Source of the DNA: Ignavibacteria bacterium
GTDB taxonomy: Bacteria > Bacteroidota > Ignavibacteria > Kapaibacteriales > UBA2268
Direction: 5' to 3'
NCBI GenBank assembly: GCA_026416955.1
Contig: JAOAEE010000013.1
Span: forward strand, 62,001 to 126,000
Length of the DNA stretch: 64,000 nucleotides
The stretch's first letter is position 1. The number at the start of each line of letters is the position of its first letter. This document shows, piece by piece, positions 23,602-37,387 of this stretch. Both the position numbers and the translations under genes were made by a program. Under the pieces are notes generated by a model that ran no database searches, was not told the DNA's origin, and was given only the letters and a program-made list of their open reading frames with translations.

Positions 23602-26109
23602 CTAGAAATCTTCTTGCATCCAAGTTTGGACATAGGTTTGAAACTTTTTCGATAATGTTACAGCCGTTTCATAATCATCGCTTTCTCCAATGATTAAGAA
23701 TTCTGGTTTTTCAAGGTCTGGATACAAAAGCACCGAATCACCATTTTTAAATATCTTTACTCCTTCGACTAACTGGCGTTCGTAACCTTCGGAGAACTCC
23801 AAAGCCCTTCGAATGACTTTGCCTTTATTTTCCCAAGGACAATCAACTTTTATAGTGTGTTGAAATCTTCTTGGGAGCATTTCATCAAGCTGTTCCATTG
23901 AATATCCAGTTTTGGCAAGCATTTCGAGAATTTTCCCAATTGAATACATTCCATCACTTGCAAATAGAAAGTCGGTAAAAATAAAACTACCCCAGACACC
24001 ACCAACAAATTTAATTTTCTCGTCTCTTGTTGCCTCCATCATTGCAGAATGAGAATTCTTAATTCGAACCACTTCAATACCATACTCGTTCGCAACCTTT
24101 TCGACTTCTGATGAAGCAACTATCGAGACTGCAATTTTATAGTCCTTTTGTGTTCTATTCGTTTCTAGGAATAATTTAGTAACAATTGTAAGAAGTCTTT
24201 GAGGATGGTAAAGAACTCCTCTACTATTAATGACAAGAATTTTTTCAGCGCCCGGTTCAATAATAAAGCCAAGTTCGTAACCCAAAGACTTCATAATTCT
24301 ACAAGCCTCGGGGCTTTCTATTAATGTACCTTCAGCCATTGGTTGATGTTTCATAGCATCAACATAATCGTGAAGCGAAAGAGTCTCGGCGTTTAATTTA
24401 CCCAAAATAATCGGGAAAATAGTAGCCGCTAAACCATAGGAATAATCCATAAGTATTTTGAAGCGCCTACTTTTAATAATATCAACATCCAATGAACTTA
24501 AGTACCGATTAATATAAATCTCGTTTGTTCGCTCGGGATAATATAGCTGCCCAACCTCACTATAATGTACTCGTTTTATGTCCTCGCCAAAAAAGTATCT
24601 CTCTATAGTTTTAGCCTTTGAAAGCCCAATGTCTCTTCCATCGCTACTAAAAATAATTATGTCGGTTTTATCGGGATTCCGAGGGGAACGACGAACGTGG
24701 ATTCCACCAGAGTACTTACCGGTTCTCAACTCTTGCCTTGTTTGTGGAATTGAAGTAGTTTGCAAATCGTTAACATTAACACCAACTGAAGCAAGTCCAG
24801 CAGTGATGGAGCGTTTAATTATTCTTGATACTCTATCGGGGTCTCTGCTCGCAATAACATTAGAATTTTTTCCAAAAGTCATTCCAATAGCCATACCCAA
24901 CTTGGAACCAAATTCTGGATGAATTTCTGTGTTCGACAATCCAGAAATCCTTGCTCCTGTGAATAGTTCTCGTTGCCACTTTTCTTCCTGCACAAGCGAA
25001 CGCGACAATTTTGCTCCGTCCTCAATATGTTTAAGTGGCCATAATTTAATATTTGGGGCAAGAGTAACATTATTTCCAATGGTGCATCCTACTGAAACAA
25101 AAACATTTTCCCCTATTGTTACTGATTCACCGATTGTGCAATCATAACAAATAACATCGTCGGTAAGTTCGGAAAAAGAGCCTATTCTAACATTATCCCA
25201 AATTGAAACTCCTTTCATACGGACTCCTTTTCCAATCCTCACATTACTACCAATAACACAATCGGTCAACTCAGTAAAATCCTCAATAATTGTATTATCT
25301 CCAATTACAACTTTACCCTTGAATTTAACATTAGGTGCAATTGAACAATTGCTACCTAAAATAACATTGCCTTGTTTTTCTCCTTTAAAAAGAACATTAA
25401 CATTTCCTCTCAATGCGTCGATTTGCCCGTTTTGATATTCCTCTAAATTCCCAATGTCCTTCCAATAACCATCAGCAACAAAACCATACAGAGGCATTTT
25501 GTTCCTTAGCATTAAAGGAAATAGGTCCTTACTAAAATCAAATTCCTCTTGATATGGAATAAGTTCCAAAACTTCTGGTTCCAAAATGTAAATTCCTGTA
25601 TTTATGGTATCAGAAAAAACTTCCCCCCAGGATGGTTTCTCTAAAAAACGAACTATCTTTCCCTCTTTATCTGTGATAACAATACCATATTGAAGAGGAA
25701 CTTTTACACGAGTTAAAAGAATTGTTGCAAGTGAATTCTTCGACAAATGAAAATCAATTGCCTCTTGCAAATTGAAGTCAGTAAGTACATCCCCACTAAT
25801 TACAATGAACCTTTGGTCGAGATATTGATAAGCATTTTTTACAGCACCAGCAGTTCCATAATCTGCTGTTGCAAGAACGTATTTGATATTCACACCAAAT
25901 TTACTACCATCCTTAAAATACTCAGTAATAACTTCTGGCTGAAAGTAAAGTAAAGCAACAATTTCCCTGATGTTGTACTTCTTTAATAGATTGATAACGT
26001 GCTCCATAATTGGAATGTTGACAATTGGTACCATTGGTTTTGGAATTGTCATAGTCAAAGGTCGAAGCCTTGTTCCAAAACCACCAGCCATCAAAACTGC
26101 CTTTTTCAT
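23602..26109 (-). CDS. Sugar nucleotidyltransferase fused to phosphomannomutase-like domain
   Basis: An 835-residue fusion. Residues 1-235 are an NTP-transferase domain (VLMAGGFGTRLRPLT, PKPMVPI), about 250-365 a left-handed beta-helix of hexapeptide repeats, and about 385-835 a phosphoglucomutase/phosphomannomutase-like region. Such fusions are annotated as mannose-1-phosphate guanylyltransferases. In the mutase half the metal loop DGDADR reads EPGAEK (near 618) and the sugar loop GEESGH region reads GGVWGSF (near 705). Mutase activity is therefore doubtful, while the transferase half looks intact. It could supply GDP-mannose or a related sugar for the exported polysaccharide. It is the first gene of this minus-strand operon. 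Confidence 0.88.
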   Translation of the reverse strand: MKKAVLMAGGFGTRLRPLTMTIPKPMVPIVNIPIMEHVINLLKKYNIREIVALLYFQPEVITEYFKDGSKFGVNIKYVLATADYGTAGAVKNAYQYLDQRFIVISGDVLTDFNLQEAIDFHLSKNSLATILLTRVKVPLQYGIVITDKEGKIVRFLEKPSWGEVFSDTINTGIYILEPEVLELIPYQEEFDFSKDLFPLMLRNKMPLYGFVADGYWKDIGNLEEYQNGQIDALRGNVNVLFKGEKQGNVILGSNCSIAPNVKFKGKVVIGDNTIIEDFTELTDCVIGSNVRIGKGVRMKGVSIWDNVRIGSFSELTDDVICYDCTIGESVTIGENVFVSVGCTIGNNVTLAPNIKLWPLKHIEDGAKLSRSLVQEEKWQRELFTGARISGLSNTEIHPEFGSKLGMAIGMTFGKNSNVIASRDPDRVSRIIKRSITAGLASVGVNVNDLQTTSIPQTRQELRTGKYSGGIHVRRSPRNPDKTDIIIFSSDGRDIGLSKAKTIERYFFGEDIKRVHYSEVGQLYYPERTNEIYINRYLSSLDVDIIKSRRFKILMDYSYGLAATIFPIILGKLNAETLSLHDYVDAMKHQPMAEGTLIESPEACRIMKSLGYELGFIIEPGAEKILVINSRGVLYHPQRLLTIVTKLFLETNRTQKDYKIAVSIVASSEVEKVANEYGIEVVRIKNSHSAMMEATRDEKIKFVGGVWGSFIFTDFLFASDGMYSIGKILEMLAKTGYSMEQLDEMLPRRFQHTIKVDCPWENKGKVIRRALEFSEGYERQLVEGVKIFKNGDSVLLYPDLEKPEFLIIGESDDYETAVTLSKKFQTYVQTWMQEDF

Positions 26110-26213: not shown

Positions 26214-27590
26214 ATGAAGAAATTTCTATTACTTTTGATTTTAGTTCTTCTCGCTCAATTAGAGATATTTTCACAAGCAAACAAACCTATTCCAATCACT
26301 GTTGGCCCGAAACCTACATACGTTAATGGTTTCTTTAATTTTTTAGTAAATGATTATAGGTTAATTGTTACAACCTTGGGGATCGACAAGAACTTCAATG
26401 GTAAAGAAGATTCAGGAGATGTCAAACCAGCTCTTTATCAAATTTCATTAAACCAAATTATGAATGGTAACTTTACCGGCTCATTACTTACAGAACTCGA
26501 CTTTGGCTCTCTTCCTTTCCCCACCAGAATAGCAATTGATAATATCGGAAATTTTGCATACATACCAAACAAACTTACTATTTCGAAAATTCTGCTTGAA
26601 TCTGGGGATATAATAACCACAATCAATCCTTTTAGCAAGCTAAATCTTCCGCCGGATGCTTATATTTCATCTGTGGACTTCGTAAATGGGTACCTTTTCT
26701 TAAGTGTAAGAGCTAAAAACTATAATAATTTTTTCATTGTCAAAGAAAGCACACTCGATATTATATTCGAAACAGCAACTGAACCTAACCCTCAGCAATC
26801 AGTAGTCGTTGGCAACTATCTCTTTATTCTTTGTGAAGGAACTTTGGGTCAGAACAATTCTAAACTTTGGGTCTACGAAATCAAAAGTTTCGACCAATGG
26901 GAAATAGCTTTCGTTAAAGAATTTGAAATAGGCGACACTGGCAACCATCTTAGGAAAGTCGGAAATGATAAACTTTTAATTACAATGAATGGCTCCCATC
27001 AAATTCATATTCTAAATGTTACAACCTTGCAAATCGAAAAAACTATTCAATTGCCAACAAGTGGATACGATGGACCAAGAGAATCTGGAATAATTGGTGA
27101 TAAAACAATTGTCACTACTGCTTACGATGGCAACTTATATATTTTCGATACAAATGGCAATCAATTGGGGAGGATATCAATCGCGAACAAATTGGAAGGT
27201 ATTTTTACATACACTTTCCCAAATCCAAATATGAATTTCTCAATCGTAGTAGCAACTAGCCCATTTTTACCAAACTACCAACCAAACGATAAAATCTACC
27301 TTTTTGTAAATTTCTTATCAAATGTAGAAAACAATATTTTTTTGAACAATTTCAAAATTTTCCCCAATCCAGCTAATGACTACATAGTTTTGTCTTTGAA
27401 CTCAGATAGTGAATTTCCAACAAAGTTGAGTATTTTCGATAAACTTGGCAACAAAATTAAAGAATTCAATTTCTCCTTTGTCGGGAAAGACTTACTAATT
27501 CCAATTTCCGACTTACCTTCGGGTTCCTACTTAGCTAAAATTTACGGAACAAATGTTGTACAAACATTACCCTTTGTTGTCGTTAAGTAA
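26214..27590 (+). CDS. Secreted propeller-like protein with T9SS sorting domain, coupled to a TonB receptor
   Basis: This 458-residue protein has signal peptide MKKFLLLLILVLLAQLEIFSQA. A repetitive beta region at about 30-365 resembles YncE-like propellers (NHLRKVGNDKLLITMNGSHQ, GNLYIFDTNG). A type A T9SS sorting domain lies at about 380-458 (FKIFPNPANDYIVLSL, LPSGSYLAKIYG). Its stop overlaps the start of the TonB-dependent receptor gene (TAATG). It may act as a surface partner that binds substrate for that receptor, by analogy with propeller proteins next to receptors in Bacteroidota. The ligand is unknown and I saw no riboswitch in the 104-base upstream gap. Confidence 0.78.
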   Translation: MKKFLLLLILVLLAQLEIFSQANKPIPITVGPKPTYVNGFFNFLVNDYRLIVTTLGIDKNFNGKEDSGDVKPALYQISLNQIMNGNFTGSLLTELDFGSLPFPTRIAIDNIGNFAYIPNKLTISKILLESGDIITTINPFSKLNLPPDAYISSVDFVNGYLFLSVRAKNYNNFFIVKESTLDIIFETATEPNPQQSVVVGNYLFILCEGTLGQNNSKLWVYEIKSFDQWEIAFVKEFEIGDTGNHLRKVGNDKLLITMNGSHQIHILNVTTLQIEKTIQLPTSGYDGPRESGIIGDKTIVTTAYDGNLYIFDTNGNQLGRISIANKLEGIFTYTFPNPNMNFSIVVATSPFLPNYQPNDKIYLFVNFLSNVENNIFLNNFKIFPNPANDYIVLSLNSDSEFPTKLSIFDKLGNKIKEFNFSFVGKDLLIPISDLPSGSYLAKIYGTNVVQTLPFVVVK

Positions 27591-29509
27591 TGAAATTTGC
27601 TTTCATTATCTTTGTATTAATACTTAATATTAATCAATTACTATCCAGCGATACTATCGAGACAAAGATTAAAAACGAAGTAATAGTTCAAGAAGAAAAA
27701 GATAAACCAGCTGGTTTAAATAAATTATCGTATTACAAAATTAATTTAAGTAAACAAAGATTTTTTGGTACAAGTTCAATAACCGAAGTTTTAAAAACAC
27801 TACCCGGTGTTTACTTACGAGACTATGGGGGTATCGGAGGGATAAAAACAATATCCCTCCGAGGTTTTTCTTCGCAAGATGTAACTATACTTCTTGACGA
27901 ATGTAAAATAAATAATCAACAAAACGGAGTATTCGACCTTACTTTAATTCCTATCGATATTTTTGAAGAAATAGAATTATTTAAAGGAGGTTCTTCATTT
28001 TTTTGGGGCAACAATTCTGCATCTGGTTCTCTTAATTTCGATATTAGCAATTCGGCTAACAAAAGTTTCGTCAAACTCTCTTACGGTTCATTTGCTCAAT
28101 TTAGTTTATCTTCAATTTTTTCGTTCAAACTCAAAAAATTTTACTCTGGAAAAATTGCTTACAATTTTTTTAACTCTAATGGAAATTATCCAATTAAAAT
28201 CAATGAATTTGGGATAACCAAAGAAATAAAAAGACAAAACAGTAAAATTTCAAAAACTTCGCTTTATTTTAACAACCAATTCTTAACTGATTACTTCTTA
28301 ACTAATTTAAATATTATATATACTCATTCAAACAGGGGTGTTCCAGGTGCTGTCTTGCAAAACAACATTGAAAACAAAAAAGCCACTCTTACAGACGATT
28401 TCCTTTTTATCAACTTAAAATTCCATCCAATATTCATAGATACAAATCTTTATCTTGTAGGTAAAACAATTTTTTCAATGAACAAATACTACGACCCAGA
28501 AGTGAATAAACTTCTTTTGCAGAAAGAAACCGCAGTTTACGAAAACAAAGATTTCGAATTAAGACTTAACTACAATAATTACCTCCTTTGGAACAAAATT
28601 AATTTTATGCTTGAAACAAGTTATTATTTTTTTAAAGGGGATATGCTCGAAAAAAAGGAAGGCAATAACATAGTACGTAACAATTTAGGTTATGGTTTAA
28701 GTATATCAAAGGATTTCCTTTATAAAGAAATTACATACGGTTACGAGATAAACTTTAGAACAGATATTAACTCCAAGTTCTCTCCAAATTATGCTTATTC
28801 GATTGGTTTGCTTCTTTCCAACAATTCCAATACTCCAAGCACAAAAATAATGTTTTCAAACAATTATAGATTGCCAACATTCAACGAAATGTACTACCTA
28901 AATTATGGGAACCAAAATTTACGACCAGAAAAAACACAATCGTTCAATTTTGAAATCAACTTTGATTTATTTAATGCTATTCAACCTACTTTTGTCATTT
29001 ATTATTATACCACAATAGACAAAATAGTTTCGGTTCCGAAATCCCCAGTACAATGGACCGCGATGAACATCACCAAATCCCGTTCTTTTGGATACGAAAT
29101 AACACTCAATTCAAACAATAAATATTTGGAAGGCACTCTCTCCATCTCATATACTAACGCCACTGATAGAACAAAAAATTCACCCACATTTGGTAAGCAA
29201 ATTATTTACACGCCTAAAATAATTACAAATATATCAATTTCCTCTCCAATTCTAAAATATTTGAACATTGCAAGCAAACTTATCTATGTAGGAGAAAGAT
29301 ACTCTCTCCCAGATAATTCTCCTAATTCCAAATTAAACAACTACATTCTATGGGATATTGTGATTTCGAAAGAAATATCTTTGAAAAATTTCCAAATATT
29401 TATTAGTTTTGAAGTTTTGAACATTTTAAATAAACAATACGAAGTAATATTTAATTATCCTATGCCCGGTAGAAGTTTTTCAATTAATCTAATAACCAAT
29501 TTCCTTTAA
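27590..29509 (+). CDS. TonB-dependent outer-membrane receptor
   Basis: A 639-residue receptor. After a short signal peptide the plug domain spans about residues 55-155 (TSSITEVLKTLPGVYLRDYGGIGGIKTISLRGFSSQDVTILLDE), followed by a 22-strand-type barrel rich in alternating hydrophobic residues. The conserved late-barrel segment LRPEKTQSFNFEINFDLFN and the C-terminal aromatic ending are present. There is no N-terminal carboxypeptidase-like extension, so it is a plain BtuB/CirA-like transporter rather than a SusC protein. It would import a metal complex or cofactor using TonB energy. It is coupled to the upstream surface protein and 6 bases ahead of the response regulator. Confidence 0.9.
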   Translation: MKFAFIIFVLILNINQLLSSDTIETKIKNEVIVQEEKDKPAGLNKLSYYKINLSKQRFFGTSSITEVLKTLPGVYLRDYGGIGGIKTISLRGFSSQDVTILLDECKINNQQNGVFDLTLIPIDIFEEIELFKGGSSFFWGNNSASGSLNFDISNSANKSFVKLSYGSFAQFSLSSIFSFKLKKFYSGKIAYNFFNSNGNYPIKINEFGITKEIKRQNSKISKTSLYFNNQFLTDYFLTNLNIIYTHSNRGVPGAVLQNNIENKKATLTDDFLFINLKFHPIFIDTNLYLVGKTIFSMNKYYDPEVNKLLLQKETAVYENKDFELRLNYNNYLLWNKINFMLETSYYFFKGDMLEKKEGNNIVRNNLGYGLSISKDFLYKEITYGYEINFRTDINSKFSPNYAYSIGLLLSNNSNTPSTKIMFSNNYRLPTFNEMYYLNYGNQNLRPEKTQSFNFEINFDLFNAIQPTFVIYYYTTIDKIVSVPKSPVQWTAMNITKSRSFGYEITLNSNNKYLEGTLSISYTNATDRTKNSPTFGKQIIYTPKIITNISISSPILKYLNIASKLIYVGERYSLPDNSPNSKLNNYILWDIVISKEISLKNFQIFISFEVLNILNKQYEVIFNYPMPGRSFSINLITNFL

Positions 29510-29515
29510 AATATT

Positions 29516-30523
29516 ATGGAGCAGTTCAATATACTAATAGTTGAAGATGATTTTGCTGCACTCCAAGTACTTAAAAGAGTACTTGAAAAAGAAAACTACA
29601 TAACAATTCCTGTTGACAATGTTGAAGATGCATTTTCAATATTAAAAAGAGAAAAAATAGACCTTATTGTTAGCGATTGGATGATGCCAAATATTGATGG
29701 AATAGAATTTCTTTTTCGTCTAAAAGCAAATTTTTCAGACCCACCACCAGTTATCATTGTTACTGCTTTAACCTCGGATATGGCTAAAGAGTATGCTCTT
29801 CGCTCTGGTGCTGCCGAATTTATCGAAAAACCAATTAACATTCCAAGCTTCATCCAGTCCATAAAGAAAATTCTTGAAACTCAAAAGTCTAAAAATTTGG
29901 GTTTTGTCCAAACTTCAACTTCTTTTCCCCCTTTTATACCAATTGCTTTTTTGTCGGGCAACGGAGGTGTAAATCCTTTACTCGAGATACTTACATCACT
30001 GAAAAACATCAAAGAAAAGATTGTCTATACAATAATCCAACAAGGTAATAAATTTCTTGTAGACTCTCTTATTACAAAAATTAAGGAAAAATGTAGTAAA
30101 GAAGCAATTATTCCACAAAATTTAATTTATCCAAAAGAAAATAATGTTTATATTGCGCCACACGATTATCATCTCTCATTCACACAAAATTATGAATTAT
30201 TGATTGACAAAGGTCCAAAGGAAAATTACCAAAGACCTTCTGCTGAACCTCTTTTTAGAACTATGGCAAATTATTTTGGAAATTTCTCAATAGTAGTTAT
30301 TCTTTCGGGCTTGGGTGCTGATGGCATACAAGGTGCTATGAAGATAAAATCCAATGGGGGGCACATAATCTGCCAAGAACCATCAAGTGCAATCGCTCCA
30401 ACTTTACCGCAGTCATATATCAACTCTTCTATCGAACCAATAGTATTAATTCCTGAAAAAATCCCAAAAGAAATTGAGAAGATTGTCAATGAATTAAGTT
30501 GTATAAAAATGAAAAAACAATAG
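29516..30523 (+). CDS. Response regulator with catalytically degenerate CheB-like domain
   Basis: A 335-residue protein with a receiver at 1-125 and a CheB methylesterase-like domain at about 140-330. The receiver looks functional (VEDDFAA, phospho-Asp in VSDWMMPNIDG, Lys in EKPI). The C-terminal domain keeps the CheB scaffold: YIAPHDYHLSF, RPSAEPLFRTMA and LSGLGADGIQGAMKIKSNGG with the third triad residue, Asp. In contrast the GASTGG serine aligns with Gly in FLSGNGGVNP, and the QHMP histidine is Gln in IIQQGN. Esterase activity is thus unlikely; it may bind receptors or another target as a pseudoenzyme. It sits downstream of the TonB receptor, not next to chemotaxis genes. Confidence 0.85.
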   Translation: MEQFNILIVEDDFAALQVLKRVLEKENYITIPVDNVEDAFSILKREKIDLIVSDWMMPNIDGIEFLFRLKANFSDPPPVIIVTALTSDMAKEYALRSGAAEFIEKPINIPSFIQSIKKILETQKSKNLGFVQTSTSFPPFIPIAFLSGNGGVNPLLEILTSLKNIKEKIVYTIIQQGNKFLVDSLITKIKEKCSKEAIIPQNLIYPKENNVYIAPHDYHLSFTQNYELLIDKGPKENYQRPSAEPLFRTMANYFGNFSIVVILSGLGADGIQGAMKIKSNGGHIICQEPSSAIAPTLPQSYINSSIEPIVLIPEKIPKEIEKIVNELSCIKMKKQ

Positions 30524-30585: not shown

Positions 30586-31353
30586 ATGAAAAAGTATCAT
30601 CATTTCTTTATTATTTTTTTAAGTGTTTTTCCTCTTCTGTTACTTTTGTCTTGTTCCGACTCCTCTACCAATAACAGTGAACCCTCAAAGAAAACCTATT
30701 TCCCAACTTCTGTTGGCTCTTTCTGGAAATATCTTCAATATGAAATCGACTCCCTTGGAGTTAAAGTTCCTAACACAGAAGATACTATTACCTCTACTAT
30801 TGTTTCTAACCAAATGATTTTAGGAAAAAATGCTTCGATTTTCCTAAGTAAATCGAGCAAAAACCAAACAACAGACACATTAATTTATGCTTACGAAAAC
30901 GATAAAGTTTATTCGTTTTTATCTTTATTTGATAATGAATTTATCCCAATTGGTGAAGGTAAACAATGGATTTTGCTTGCTGACTTCAATTCACCCCAAT
31001 GGACAATTTTAAGCGACACTACTTTGGATACCCTCGATTTTCAAGACTTTGCCAAAATGATACCAACCATTAGTGTTAAAGGGAAAAAAGGTAATAAATC
31101 TGACCTTGCTATTAAAAATAAAGCAGTACCTTCGCAAGAAATAATACTTACAATTTCATTTAAAATTAAAATGCTCCTTCCAAATGTTCCCTTACCAGTC
31201 AACTTAAACTTCGATGTCGTTCAGCACTATTGGTTTGGAGAAGGAATTGGGATCGTTAAAGAAAGACTTGACCCCTTTAAATTCAGTGTGCTAGTTATGG
31301 AACAAAGCTTCAATGGCAATCAATCCGATTTAATCGATTACAACATTAAGTAA
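30586..31353 (+). CDS. Predicted lipoprotein, function unknown
   Basis: The start is moved to the ATG at 30586, preceded by a perfect GGAGG; the track start at 30499 would overlap the upstream gene. The 255-residue product has a lipoprotein signal ending LLLLLSC, so Cys would be lipidated. A Ser/Asn-rich linker follows, then a beta-rich domain (TSVGSFWKYLQYEID, HYWFGEGIGIVKERL). This arrangement resembles small periplasmic or surface lipoproteins in Bacteroidota, but I do not recognise the family. The 147-base gap downstream shows no gene. Confidence 0.7.
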   Translation: MKKYHHFFIIFLSVFPLLLLLSCSDSSTNNSEPSKKTYFPTSVGSFWKYLQYEIDSLGVKVPNTEDTITSTIVSNQMILGKNASIFLSKSSKNQTTDTLIYAYENDKVYSFLSLFDNEFIPIGEGKQWILLADFNSPQWTILSDTTLDTLDFQDFAKMIPTISVKGKKGNKSDLAIKNKAVPSQEIILTISFKIKMLLPNVPLPVNLNFDVVQHYWFGEGIGIVKERLDPFKFSVLVMEQSFNGNQSDLIDYNIK

Positions 31354-31500: not shown

Positions 31501-33663
31501 TTAATTTTTGGTTGTATTTTCTATATACTTAATATTAAGTATCTGCACAGAGGTAATTATTTCATTTTCAATTTTTTCGATTTCATCTAAAAGTTCCGAA
31601 AGCTCGATTTCGAATTGTTTCAATGTACTCTTATATTCATTTAAACATTCTTTTAGTTCCGATAATTTCTCTTCCTGTTGTTGAATAAAGTCCTCAGAGC
31701 GTTGCATTGCTTGTTTCTTTTCTTTAGAGGAAAAAAAGTCTATCAACAAAAAAATCATAATACCAAAAATAAGTAGGGAAATTATTTTCAATGCAGTTCC
31801 AAGTCCCCTAATGGATTCAATATTTATTGTTTCGTTAAAAATGTAAAAAATGTTGTTACCAGCAAGAAAGAGAAGAATAGAGAATAAGGTCAGAAATAAA
31901 AATGGAAACCAAATGTGTTTCGGGTGGGAGGTGAATTTTTTTGAATTTAAATCAATTAAATAATTTTCGTTTGCTACAATACTCTTTTGCAATTCTTGTA
32001 TTTCAACTTTGATTTTAGATTTAATAATTTGAATTTTTTGTATCTTTTTATTGATAATTTCTTTATTTTCTTTCAATTTTTCAACTTTTTTCGATAAACT
32101 ATCTAATGTTTTTCTTACTATCCCAGAAATAATATCTAATTTTTCATTATACCTAAAGTTATCAACCAATTTATTAAAATTTAACAACATCTCTCTGGTA
32201 TCATCTGGTAAACTATAAGTTAAATTTGATTTGATAAATAAATTCTGATTACTTTTTACAAACTGCTCGACGGTTTTATAATCTTCTTGAAATATTGCTT
32301 GGAGTGTTGCTCCTAAATCAAACTCCTTGAAGTATGCAATATTTCTTAAAACTTTTCTTTCTTCTGGGTTAAATTTTCTTAATGGTTCAAAAAATTGCAT
32401 AAACTTGGAGTAAAAAGTAGAAAAATCTTTAAACTTATCTTCTTCAAAAAATTGAAGGTAATTATAAATGAAAAATTTATAAGTGGCTTTCACTTCAAAG
32501 AAGCCCATTGTATCGGAAATTTTCCGAGTTAGCTCTGTTTCATTGCATAAATACTTAAAAATCTTACCATAAAAAGGGAAATTTTCTGGGAGACACCGAA
32601 TAGCTTCTTCTGGAAAATAATCGAATAAACTCAAAAGTTTAATTGTATCGTAAAGTTTTGAATTAATTCTCTCGAAAATTTTTTGGGCAATAATATTGAA
32701 ATATTCTTTTTTCGTTTTGTCCTCAATGTTACCGTCGAACTTTTCAGCTAACAATTCCAATGCAAAAGGTATACCAAAAGTCATAGAATAAATTTCTCGG
32801 TTTTCCTTATTGATGGTATGTTTTCCAAGGAAGCTAGAAATCTCCTCCTCGTTCAAAGGGCTAACAACAAGTTCTTTAACTTTATCTTCAGAAACTGTAT
32901 TGAAAATCTTTTTGCAAGTTAATTCATACCTGGTTGCTAATAAAATCTTAAACTCAATAAAATCCGAAACTTTTTTCGTTTTCAAAGAATCAACAACTTC
33001 ATAAGAAATAAAATCATTTAGGGACTTATGTTCAAGATAATCGTACAAATGATTTACTATCCAGTAATCGACAATTCCAGAGCCCAATTCATAATTGTCG
33101 AAAATGAAATATGCTCTTATCTTAGTTTCGATTTCATTTTGTATGTGGACATAAACAAGGAAATGGATTATCGCTTCTGCTAAAACATCAAACAATCTCA
33201 GAAGAACTCTTTTATCAATATTGCGTTCAAAAATGGTATCTATCTTGTCAATAAAATTGGGAAGCAAGGCAAACTGGTTTTGTCCTACAAACTCAGTTTC
33301 AAAATAATCCCTAAAACTTAAAGCATCGAAAAAAAACTGCCCAAGTTCCTGATTCTTGCTTGCTAATTTAGTAATAATTTCATTGTACCGTAAAAGGAAA
33401 AAATTTAATTCTTCGAAAAGGTACTCAATTTTATTAAGTGAAGAATAGCATTTTAGGAAATTATTAATTTGGGAAAAATGGTTGCAACCAAACAAATCGA
33501 AATACAACGTGATTGAATTAATCTCCTTGCTCAGAAAATCATTAATTACCTGCTTTATTAAATATGTTTTTCCAACTCCAAAAGTTCCCTTCAACAAAAT
33601 AAATTCACAATTTGGGTTAGATAATTCACTCTGCAACTGGTTAAGTATGGGTCTATATATCAT
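31501..33663 (-). CDS. Membrane-anchored STAND-like P-loop ATPase with two coiled coils
   Basis: A 720-residue protein. Walker A is GTFGVGKTYL near residue 27 and a Walker B-like IFDNYELGSG follows near 185-195. A sensor-like LLATRYELT lies near 240 and helical winged or TPR-like sequence at about 260-500, the layout of AAA/STAND switch ATPases. Residues about 510-575 are a coiled coil (KKVEKLKENKEIINKKIQKI). Two TM helices at about 582-645 follow, then a second coiled coil (about 655-710, rich in Glu/Leu). No nuclease, TIR or protease effector domain is visible. It starts 10 bases after the RsbW-like gene and ends a six-gene operon. The family is not recognised. Confidence 0.72.
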   Translation of the reverse strand: MIYRPILNQLQSELSNPNCEFILLKGTFGVGKTYLIKQVINDFLSKEINSITLYFDLFGCNHFSQINNFLKCYSSLNKIEYLFEELNFFLLRYNEIITKLASKNQELGQFFFDALSFRDYFETEFVGQNQFALLPNFIDKIDTIFERNIDKRVLLRLFDVLAEAIIHFLVYVHIQNEIETKIRAYFIFDNYELGSGIVDYWIVNHLYDYLEHKSLNDFISYEVVDSLKTKKVSDFIEFKILLATRYELTCKKIFNTVSEDKVKELVVSPLNEEEISSFLGKHTINKENREIYSMTFGIPFALELLAEKFDGNIEDKTKKEYFNIIAQKIFERINSKLYDTIKLLSLFDYFPEEAIRCLPENFPFYGKIFKYLCNETELTRKISDTMGFFEVKATYKFFIYNYLQFFEEDKFKDFSTFYSKFMQFFEPLRKFNPEERKVLRNIAYFKEFDLGATLQAIFQEDYKTVEQFVKSNQNLFIKSNLTYSLPDDTREMLLNFNKLVDNFRYNEKLDIISGIVRKTLDSLSKKVEKLKENKEIINKKIQKIQIIKSKIKVEIQELQKSIVANENYLIDLNSKKFTSHPKHIWFPFLFLTLFSILLFLAGNNIFYIFNETINIESIRGLGTALKIISLLIFGIMIFLLIDFFSSKEKKQAMQRSEDFIQQQEEKLSELKECLNEYKSTLKQFEIELSELLDEIEKIENEIITSVQILNIKYIENTTKN

Positions 33664-35995: not shown

Positions 35996-36179
35996 CGATG
36001 TGGTAAACCTTCTTTTTGTATTCAATCACAAGATTTGTTAGTTCTTCGTGAGTTTCCCTAACAAGATATTTCTTACCACTTTTCAAGGAAATTACTGAAT
36101 TTGGCCCAATCTCGATAGTTTCGATTTCTTCTGCATTAATAACTATTTTTTGACCGTCAAGTTTAGTCACGAGTATCAT
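35964..36179 (-). CDS. flbD: FlbD family flagellar protein
   Basis: A 71-residue protein matching the short FlbD family: MILVTKLDGQKIVINAEEIE, then PNSVISLKSGKKYLVRETHEEL and a C-terminal VIEYKKKVYH. FlbD proteins are usually found among flagellar hook/motor genes, and their role is poorly defined. Here it lies between the degenerate receiver protein (ATGA overlap) and the barrel protein (32-base overlap), 18 kb from the flagellar export operon. Confidence 0.85.
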   Translation of the reverse strand: MILVTKLDGQKIVINAEEIETIEIGPNSVISLKSGKKYLVRETHEELTNLVIEYKKKVYHIDAKVEGKQTS

Positions 36180-37387
36180 TGAATTTTAACATATATTTTA
36201 CCAATAATTGGGTCGGTTTTGGCAATTGTTTGTATCCTTTCAACAGATTCTTGGGAAAGTAGTGTACCAGCAACAGCAATTTTTAAACCAGAGTCGGTAA
36301 CTATGTTTCTGGCCAGTGTCATACCTTCCTTCAAATCTTCTATTTCTATTTGTCTTTCCGTTGGTATTTTGAGCATTGTAGCACGGTGTGCAAGATATTG
36401 GTCCAAAAGAACTACTACCCTAAAATCGTAAAGCCTTCGCGATTCGACTTCGAGCATAGAAACGATTTTGTTGGTTTCGTACTTTTTCTGTTGGAAATAG
36501 TCATCGTAATCAATGACTACTCTTAGTATTCGCGAGGCAAGAGGAATATTGCCCTTTTCAAGTTTATCGGGCATCCCACTTCCATCGTAATTTTCGTAAA
36601 TGTGTATTACAACATTGGCAACATCTTCGTAGGAACGAAAGAAAGAAAATAATTCTTTTGCGAATAACGGAATTTTTTCCATTTTTTCATTTTTCAAGTA
36701 ACCATTTTGGGTAGGAATTTCCCCTATATTTCTTTCGGGAAGTTGCAATCGGCCAATAAAACATAACTTAGCAGCATCTTTAATCAAATTTTGTAATTCT
36801 TCATTGTTTGGGTCGTATTCATTGGCTATCCAAAGAGCAATTTCCGTTATCCTACCAATTCTTTCTGCACCATCTGGAATTTTTAAGCATTCGAAAAGGT
36901 ACAAAAGGTCGCGCATTCTTAATTTATCTTTTCTTAACTCCTCGCGTAGTTCATCAATAGTTTTTTTATGATTATGAATTGTTTTATAAAGGTGCATTAT
37001 CCGATAAGCATTTTGAAACTTAGCAATTACCTCATCAATTAAGAAAGGTTTATTTATGAAATCATCTGCACCAACCTGAAGGGCTTTGAAATTAAGTTCA
37101 GCGTTAGAATTAGAAGTGATAAAAATTATGAAATTATTTTTTATGCTTGGATTGTACGACTCTCGAATATTCTTTACTAATTGCTCAGTATGATATTGGT
37201 CTTCGAGATAATTTGCAACTATAACCATTAGGTCTTGATATTTTTGAACCAAATCCCAGCATTCTATTCCATTATCAACAGTAAAAATTGGTGACTTTCT
37301 GAAAATTCTTTCTATAACTTTTTTTAGTGAGTTTTTTGTTGATTCATTTTTTTCAACTATGCAAAATGGAATGAAAAGTTCTTCCAT
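36176..37387 (-). CDS. Degenerate receiver plus HD-GYP-like protein
   Basis: This 403-residue protein has a receiver-like domain (1-125), a coiled-coil linker (about 130-160) and an HD-GYP-like domain (about 165-320), then about 80 residues of unknown fold. The receiver lacks the usual acidic pair (VEKNES) and phospho-Asp (VIVANYLED), though the Lys of NKPF remains. The HD-GYP region keeps the frame of the family (YENYDGSGMPDKLEKGNIPLASRI). The metal-binding HD pair is instead CF (KLCFIG) and the HHE motif is IYE. Both catalysis and phosphorylation look unlikely, so it is probably a binding or scaffold protein. It overlaps the half-ClpB stop (TAATG) and flbD (ATGA). Confidence 0.8.
   Translation of the reverse strand: MEELFIPFCIVEKNESTKNSLKKVIERIFRKSPIFTVDNGIECWDLVQKYQDLMVIVANYLEDQYHTEQLVKNIRESYNPSIKNNFIIFITSNSNAELNFKALQVGADDFINKPFLIDEVIAKFQNAYRIMHLYKTIHNHKKTIDELREELRKDKLRMRDLLYLFECLKIPDGAERIGRITEIALWIANEYDPNNEELQNLIKDAAKLCFIGRLQLPERNIGEIPTQNGYLKNEKMEKIPLFAKELFSFFRSYEDVANVVIHIYENYDGSGMPDKLEKGNIPLASRILRVVIDYDDYFQQKKYETNKIVSMLEVESRRLYDFRVVVLLDQYLAHRATMLKIPTERQIEIEDLKEGMTLARNIVTDSGLKIAVAGTLLSQESVERIQTIAKTDPIIGKIYVKIQ

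Follow-up and report, generated by a model that had tools for sequence, protein, structure and literature searches.

A CheB-like response regulator with lost catalytic residues in a Kapabacteria-type bacterium: a candidate phosphorylation-gated binding module

A receiver-CheB protein of an Ignavibacteria bacterium retains the residues of a phosphorylatable receiver and has lost the catalytic serine and histidine of its methylesterase domain. The gene lies in the analysed window, a stretch of 64,000 nucleotides (assembly GCA_026416955.1, contig JAOAEE010000013.1, positions 62,001 to 126,000). As read from its sequence, the protein combines an intact receiver, a dead triad, a loss common to three species, descent from an active ancestor and continuing purifying selection. 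The best explanation, to which about an even chance is given from the sequence and by analogy with CheB, is that it acts as a phosphorylation-gated, non-catalytic CheB-fold binding module.

Domain layout and catalytic site

The open reading frame starts with ATG and encodes a receiver-CheB protein, whose parts are listed below with their evidence in brackets (the trio denotes the window protein and its counterparts in two sister species).

29516..30523 (+), CheB-like pseudo-methylesterase response regulator, 335 aa (ORF and translation; Pfam Response_reg and CheB_methylest)
29516..29890 (+), receiver domain, residues 1-125 (Pfam; alignment; normal evolutionary rate)
29675-29677 (+), codon of the phosphoacceptor Asp54 of the receiver (alignment)
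29891..29929 (+), short low-confidence linker, residues 126-138 (pLDDT <50 at 127-135; 14-31% identity within the trio)
29930..30490 (+), CheB methylesterase-fold domain with catalytic residues lost, residues 139-325 (Pfam; alignment; 3sft match)
29957..29962 (+), Gly148-Asn149 replacing catalytic Ser164 and Thr165 (alignment)
30041..30043 (+), Gln176 replacing catalytic His190 (alignment)
30320..30322 (+), Asp269, kept equivalent of catalytic Asp286 (alignment)

Both domains of the CheB family (PF00072 and PF01339, in receiver-CheB order) exceed their gathering scores: Response_reg matches residues 6-116 (E 2.7e-25, 89.1 bits against a cut-off of 30.2) and CheB_methylest residues 148-320 (E 1.8e-28, 99.9 bits against 24). 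The NCBIfam models PRK00742 (136 against 293 bits) and PRK12555 (119.6 against 342 bits) remain below cut-off for this protein. The initial annotation regarded the receiver as active, and at the level of residues this holds: the acidic pair Glu10 and Asp11, the phosphoacceptor Asp54, Thr83 at the Thr/Ser position and Lys105 are all intact in the alignment, as expected of a response regulator that should be phosphorylatable.

The catalytic site was aligned with Salmonella CheB, the canonical CheB of the same genome and orthologues found in further genera of its bacterial family. Salmonella Ser164, Thr165 and His190 correspond to Gly148, Asn149 and Gln176, and Asp286 to Asp269; the Ser-His-Asp triad of a functional CheB methylesterase thus reads Gly148, Gln176 and Asp269, just as the initial annotation had stated. 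The aligned orthologues of other genera all keep Ser and His, one of them having Tyr in place of Asp. A contig search with the window protein alone returned close full-length relatives in the two sister species only; among named relatives, two Candidatus Kapabacteria genomes come nearest, the complete chromosome CP058732.1 and CALBDO010000019.1. Both sister-species copies have the same Gly, Asn and Gln, indicating that the triad change is fixed in this lineage, and the conservation of the Gly/Gln change that the initial annotation proposed to look for is therefore found in its closest relatives. An assembly error was rejected as the source of the loss, as three assemblies agree and one is a complete chromosome. 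A shifted triad, named at the outset as one finding that would overturn the loss, was likewise sought and rejected: the sole candidate nucleophile nearby, Ser147, is replaced by Ala in the third species, and no His lies near position 176.

The catalytic-site loops are the most altered part of the protein. The loop that formerly carried Ser keeps 2 of 10 family-conserved columns and the loop that formerly carried His 1 of 11, as against 14 of 19 in the distal segment DKGPKENYQRPSAEPLFR (residues 229-257). The earlier statement that the substrate-binding segments remain hence stands for the distal segment and fails for the two loops; judging from their strong divergence, the original substrate surface may be lost.

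Parent family, evolutionary rate and predicted structure

The trio is nested within the active family, a clade of 53 members (support 100 each for the trio and the entire family), and adjoins G020 in the class tree (support 86), which indicates that its ancestor was active. It is monophyletic with the active orthologues and separate from canonical CheB. Orthologues that keep both Ser and His, one copy per genome, are spread over many genera of the bacterial family and more widely in the class, mostly as orphan genes in differing neighbourhoods; isolated cheB genes are known elsewhere (19 of 352; PMC2829493). The window protein is orthologous to these orphan receiver-CheBs (e.g., L104, L105, L112), with 32-38% identity over the full length, and differs from them in that the relatives aligned from other genera of the bacterial family have Ser and His intact (one Asp to Tyr), and in that the relatives share no common gene neighbourhood and in some cases occur in genomes without a detected MCP. 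A search across genera for conserved neighbours of the active orthologues, as a possible clue to their substrate, found none; M16 peptidase genes (beside three orthologues) and a histidine kinase gene (beside two, in one genus) were set aside as lineage-specific.

In G009 and G022 (each about 96% complete), there is no CheB besides the active orthologue, and neither an MCP nor CheR was detected; G060 and G007 likewise gave no MCP; intact-triad orphan genes in such genomes include L105 (G022), L112 (G009) and L123 (G060). If this absence is real, an active CheB in a cell lacking chemoreceptors must have a different target. Pairing the family phylogenetically with MCP number gave no simple relation. 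A triad census over genomes of the bacterial family found Ser-His-Asp in 82 of 89 CheB domains, a count that leaves out the canonical CheB of the window genome and whose underlying tally also counts the Salmonella reference. Seven domains depart from this triad: the three of the trio (Gly-Gln-Asp), one in which Asp is changed to Tyr, one with Asn for Asp and, in another lineage, two degenerate receiver-CheBs from genomes G011 and G008, in neither of which an MCP was found:

L199 3468-4505 (-), degenerate receiver-CheB, His to Ser
L200 7244-8284 (+), degenerate receiver-CheB, Ser to Gly without His

The receiver of L199 also looks degenerate. The reverse decoupling is seen in L247 and L261, which have an intact triad and a receiver without the acidic pair and Lys (SPDVP and SPDIP at the five key positions).

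Separate trees of the two domains locate the change of rate. In the methylesterase domain, the root-to-tip distance of the trio is 1.8-2.3 against 1.02 +/- 0.20 in the active orthologues, about twice as fast, whereas in the receiver it is 0.96-1.22 against 1.10 +/- 0.17, the normal rate of the family. Synonymous sites are saturated within the trio (domain pS 0.71-0.75, with an expectation of about 0.69 at four-fold sites), and pN of the dead domain is 0.27-0.34, close to the value for the propeller gene of the operon and lower than in the receptor gene, so that its constraint resembles that of its operon neighbours. These values indicate that the dead domain is still under purifying selection, by its sequence, and constrained otherwise than in its active relatives. 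Being accelerated and yet under purifying selection, it would be a folded pseudoenzyme and not a relic.

The predicted structure (pLDDT 90) has the CheB catalytic-domain fold, and the domain matches 3sft with a TM of 0.91 and an rmsd of 1.8. The placement of the domains relative to each other is unreliable in the model (pTM 0.64), and the full-length rmsd of 14.6 to Salmonella CheB (1a2o) is dominated by domain orientation. With that protein (PF00072 and PF01339), the window protein has in common the domain order, the receiver, the catalytic-domain fold and the equivalent of Asp286, at 22% identity over the structural alignment; it differs in the lost Ser164, Thr165 and His190, in a shorter linker and in its location outside a che locus. 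Lost catalytic residues, a kept fold, an active ancestor and selective maintenance are together what is expected of a pseudoenzyme, as far as sequence and model can tell, and the proposal of a phosphorylation-controlled pseudoenzyme is in this respect well supported by the intact receiver, the dead triad in three species and the purifying selection.

Operon context and further inactivated clades

The gene is part of an operon whose order (beta-propeller, BtuB-like receptor, CheB-like gene, lipoprotein) is common to three species. Its other members are:

26214..27590 (+), beta-propeller-like protein with a type IX secretion sorting tail (Por_Secre_tail; PDB propeller matches; conserved in five congeners)
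27590..29509 (+), BtuB-like TonB-dependent receptor, 6 bp upstream of the CheB-like gene (Plug; BtuB1 8blw, E 2.8e-35; conserved in five congeners)
30586..31353 (+), putative lipoprotein (conserved in five congeners, directly after the CheB-like gene or, where this is missing, after the receptor gene)

The initial annotation was right in placing the gene next to a TonB receptor and away from che genes. No che genes were found near it, and it is not encoded alongside cheA, cheR or MCP genes; the canonical CheB of the genome, with a Ser-His-Asp triad, adjoins CheA on another contig. The same genome has CheR and one MCP, with no obvious C-terminal pentapeptide on the latter. A cobalamin riboswitch was sought upstream of the BtuB-like operon and none was found. 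In two congeners, G003 and G004, the operon is kept but the CheB-like gene is missing, and about 69 and 111 bp stand in its place; the gene is dispensable in them, and its link to the TonB (BtuB-like) neighbourhood is therefore weak. In a tree of the flanking genes, the three carriers group together (support 100), so that a single gain in their ancestor fits as well as two losses. Among the other genes of the window, the one at 23602-26109 (-) encodes an 835-aa fusion of a nucleotidyltransferase bearing a left-handed beta-helix with a phosphomannomutase-like domain, and is conserved in five congeners. The gene at 31501-33663 (-) encodes 720 aa that match a STAND/AAA-type ATPase weakly at the N-terminus and include a coiled coil and a likely membrane segment, and had no family match above cut-off; the gene at 36176-37387 (-) is a fusion of a receiver (weak match) and HD_5.

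A class tree built with the triad loops masked recovers three supported clades in which catalytic residues are lost and receiver residues are intact. The window trio forms one (support 100), G385b (Ser-Gln-Asp) and G357b (Gly-Asn-Asp) the second (support 98), and G199, G166b, G166c and G395 (Gly-His-Asp) the third (support 100). The second and third clades belong to the same family as the trio, keep the receiver residues and have lost Ser and/or His; they differ from the trio in that SQD, GND and GHD arose by independent losses, and the class has at least three such supported losses of catalytic residues. An active paralogue is also kept in G385, G357 and G166, and in G385 about 600 bp of one contig separate the active from the His-less paralogue (L268 6013-7026 and 7626-8621). 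In the third clade, three of the four members (G166c, G395, G199) have che genes nearby and the fourth has a kinase-like gene: G166c is directly 5' of an MCP-signal protein, followed by a CheY-like receiver and CheA, and G199 has as neighbours a hybrid kinase, CheD, CheB, a CheR-looking gene (identified by eye) and an MCP. The corresponding stretches are:

L270 1989-7398; L271 5971-11793; L272 3355-4410, Ser-to-Gly pseudo-CheBs by CheA, a CheY-like receiver and an MCP-signal protein, or by a hybrid kinase and CheD-CheB

These clusters indicate that inactive CheBs can belong to chemosensory systems, a link that the window gene does not show, and they favour a receptor target for that clade. A search of open-access papers found no description of a natural catalytically dead CheB.

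Possible functions of the inactivated protein

In the favoured reading, a histidine kinase would phosphorylate Asp54, phosphorylation would rearrange the receiver relative to the CheB-fold domain, as it does in CheB, and the opening would expose a binding surface whose partner is neither demethylated nor deamidated, with sequestration, occlusion or scaffolding as the output. Because the model places the domains unreliably, the gating is taken from CheB. The closest experimental parallel is the Salmonella CheB S164A mutant, which still binds its receptor; phosphorylation brings CheB into an open form that binds more strongly (PMC8609364). That mutant is a catalytically dead CheB with a functional receiver that keeps target binding (PMC8609364), traits that the window protein would share; it differs in that its single substitution was engineered and in having the chemoreceptor Tar as its target. 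The ancestor of the trio was, by the tree, a catalytically active receiver-CheB of a mostly orphan kind, with a substrate that is not necessarily a chemoreceptor, and the partner would presumably lie outside the chemoreceptors. The initial annotation had proposed chemoreceptor-like or other targets; the former are not supported for the window gene, given active orthologues in genomes with no detected MCP or CheR, a location outside che loci and an MCP with no obvious pentapeptide, although a separate inactivated clade of the same family does sit in che clusters.

The same evidence bears on an unlikely alternative, a dominant-negative CheB that binds the single MCP without demethylating it, competes with the canonical CheB and CheR and shifts adaptation. 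The genome has all three players (one MCP, CheR, and the canonical CheB with its triad beside CheA), relatives in G166c, G395 and G199 lie by CheA, CheY and an MCP-signal protein or by CheD-CheB-CheR and an MCP, and S164A retains receptor binding (PMC8609364). However, beyond the points just raised against a chemoreceptor target, the catalytic-site loops are the most changed part of the protein, and G003 and G004 retain an MCP without the gene; the active family in genomes without detectable chemoreceptor or CheR also weakens the chemoreceptor reading. That the receiver alone matters, draining phosphate from a kinase beside a vestigial CheB domain, would fit a receiver evolving at the normal rate and an acceleration confined to the CheB-fold domain. 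This phosphate sink is nevertheless improbable, with a dead domain whose pN stays far short of saturation and close to or under the values for the propeller and receptor genes, an intact frame in three diverged species and three clades that lost catalysis but kept the domain.

New chemistry or the binding of a small ligand in a remodelled pocket (Gly148, Asn149, Gln176, Asp269) draws on the invariance of the new residues in the trio despite saturated synonymous sites and on the kept Asp, but such a pocket has no conserved nucleophile, Ser147 being Ala in one species, and the invariance may reflect mere shared descent and structural constraint; it is considered quite improbable. A functionless gene on its way out would explain the dead active site and the operon of G003 and G004, where only about 69 and 111 bp occupy the place of the gene, but it is contradicted by purifying selection on both domains, by a frame undisrupted in three species and by a flank tree in which one gain fits as well as two losses, and its probability is very low.

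Extending the phosphorylation-gated binding module to the class gives a more tentative proposal, possible though short of an even chance: Kapabacteria-type bacteria may have a receiver-CheB system outside chemoreceptors, from which at least three non-catalytic, phosphorylation-gated CheB-fold binders evolved. CheB is the textbook response regulator with an enzyme as its output, and the repeated loss of catalysis with an intact receiver would show that the CheB fold is usable as a switchable binding output. Intact members are present, in turn, where no MCP was detected in the genome, and this points to signalling by protein methylesters or deamidation beyond chemotaxis.
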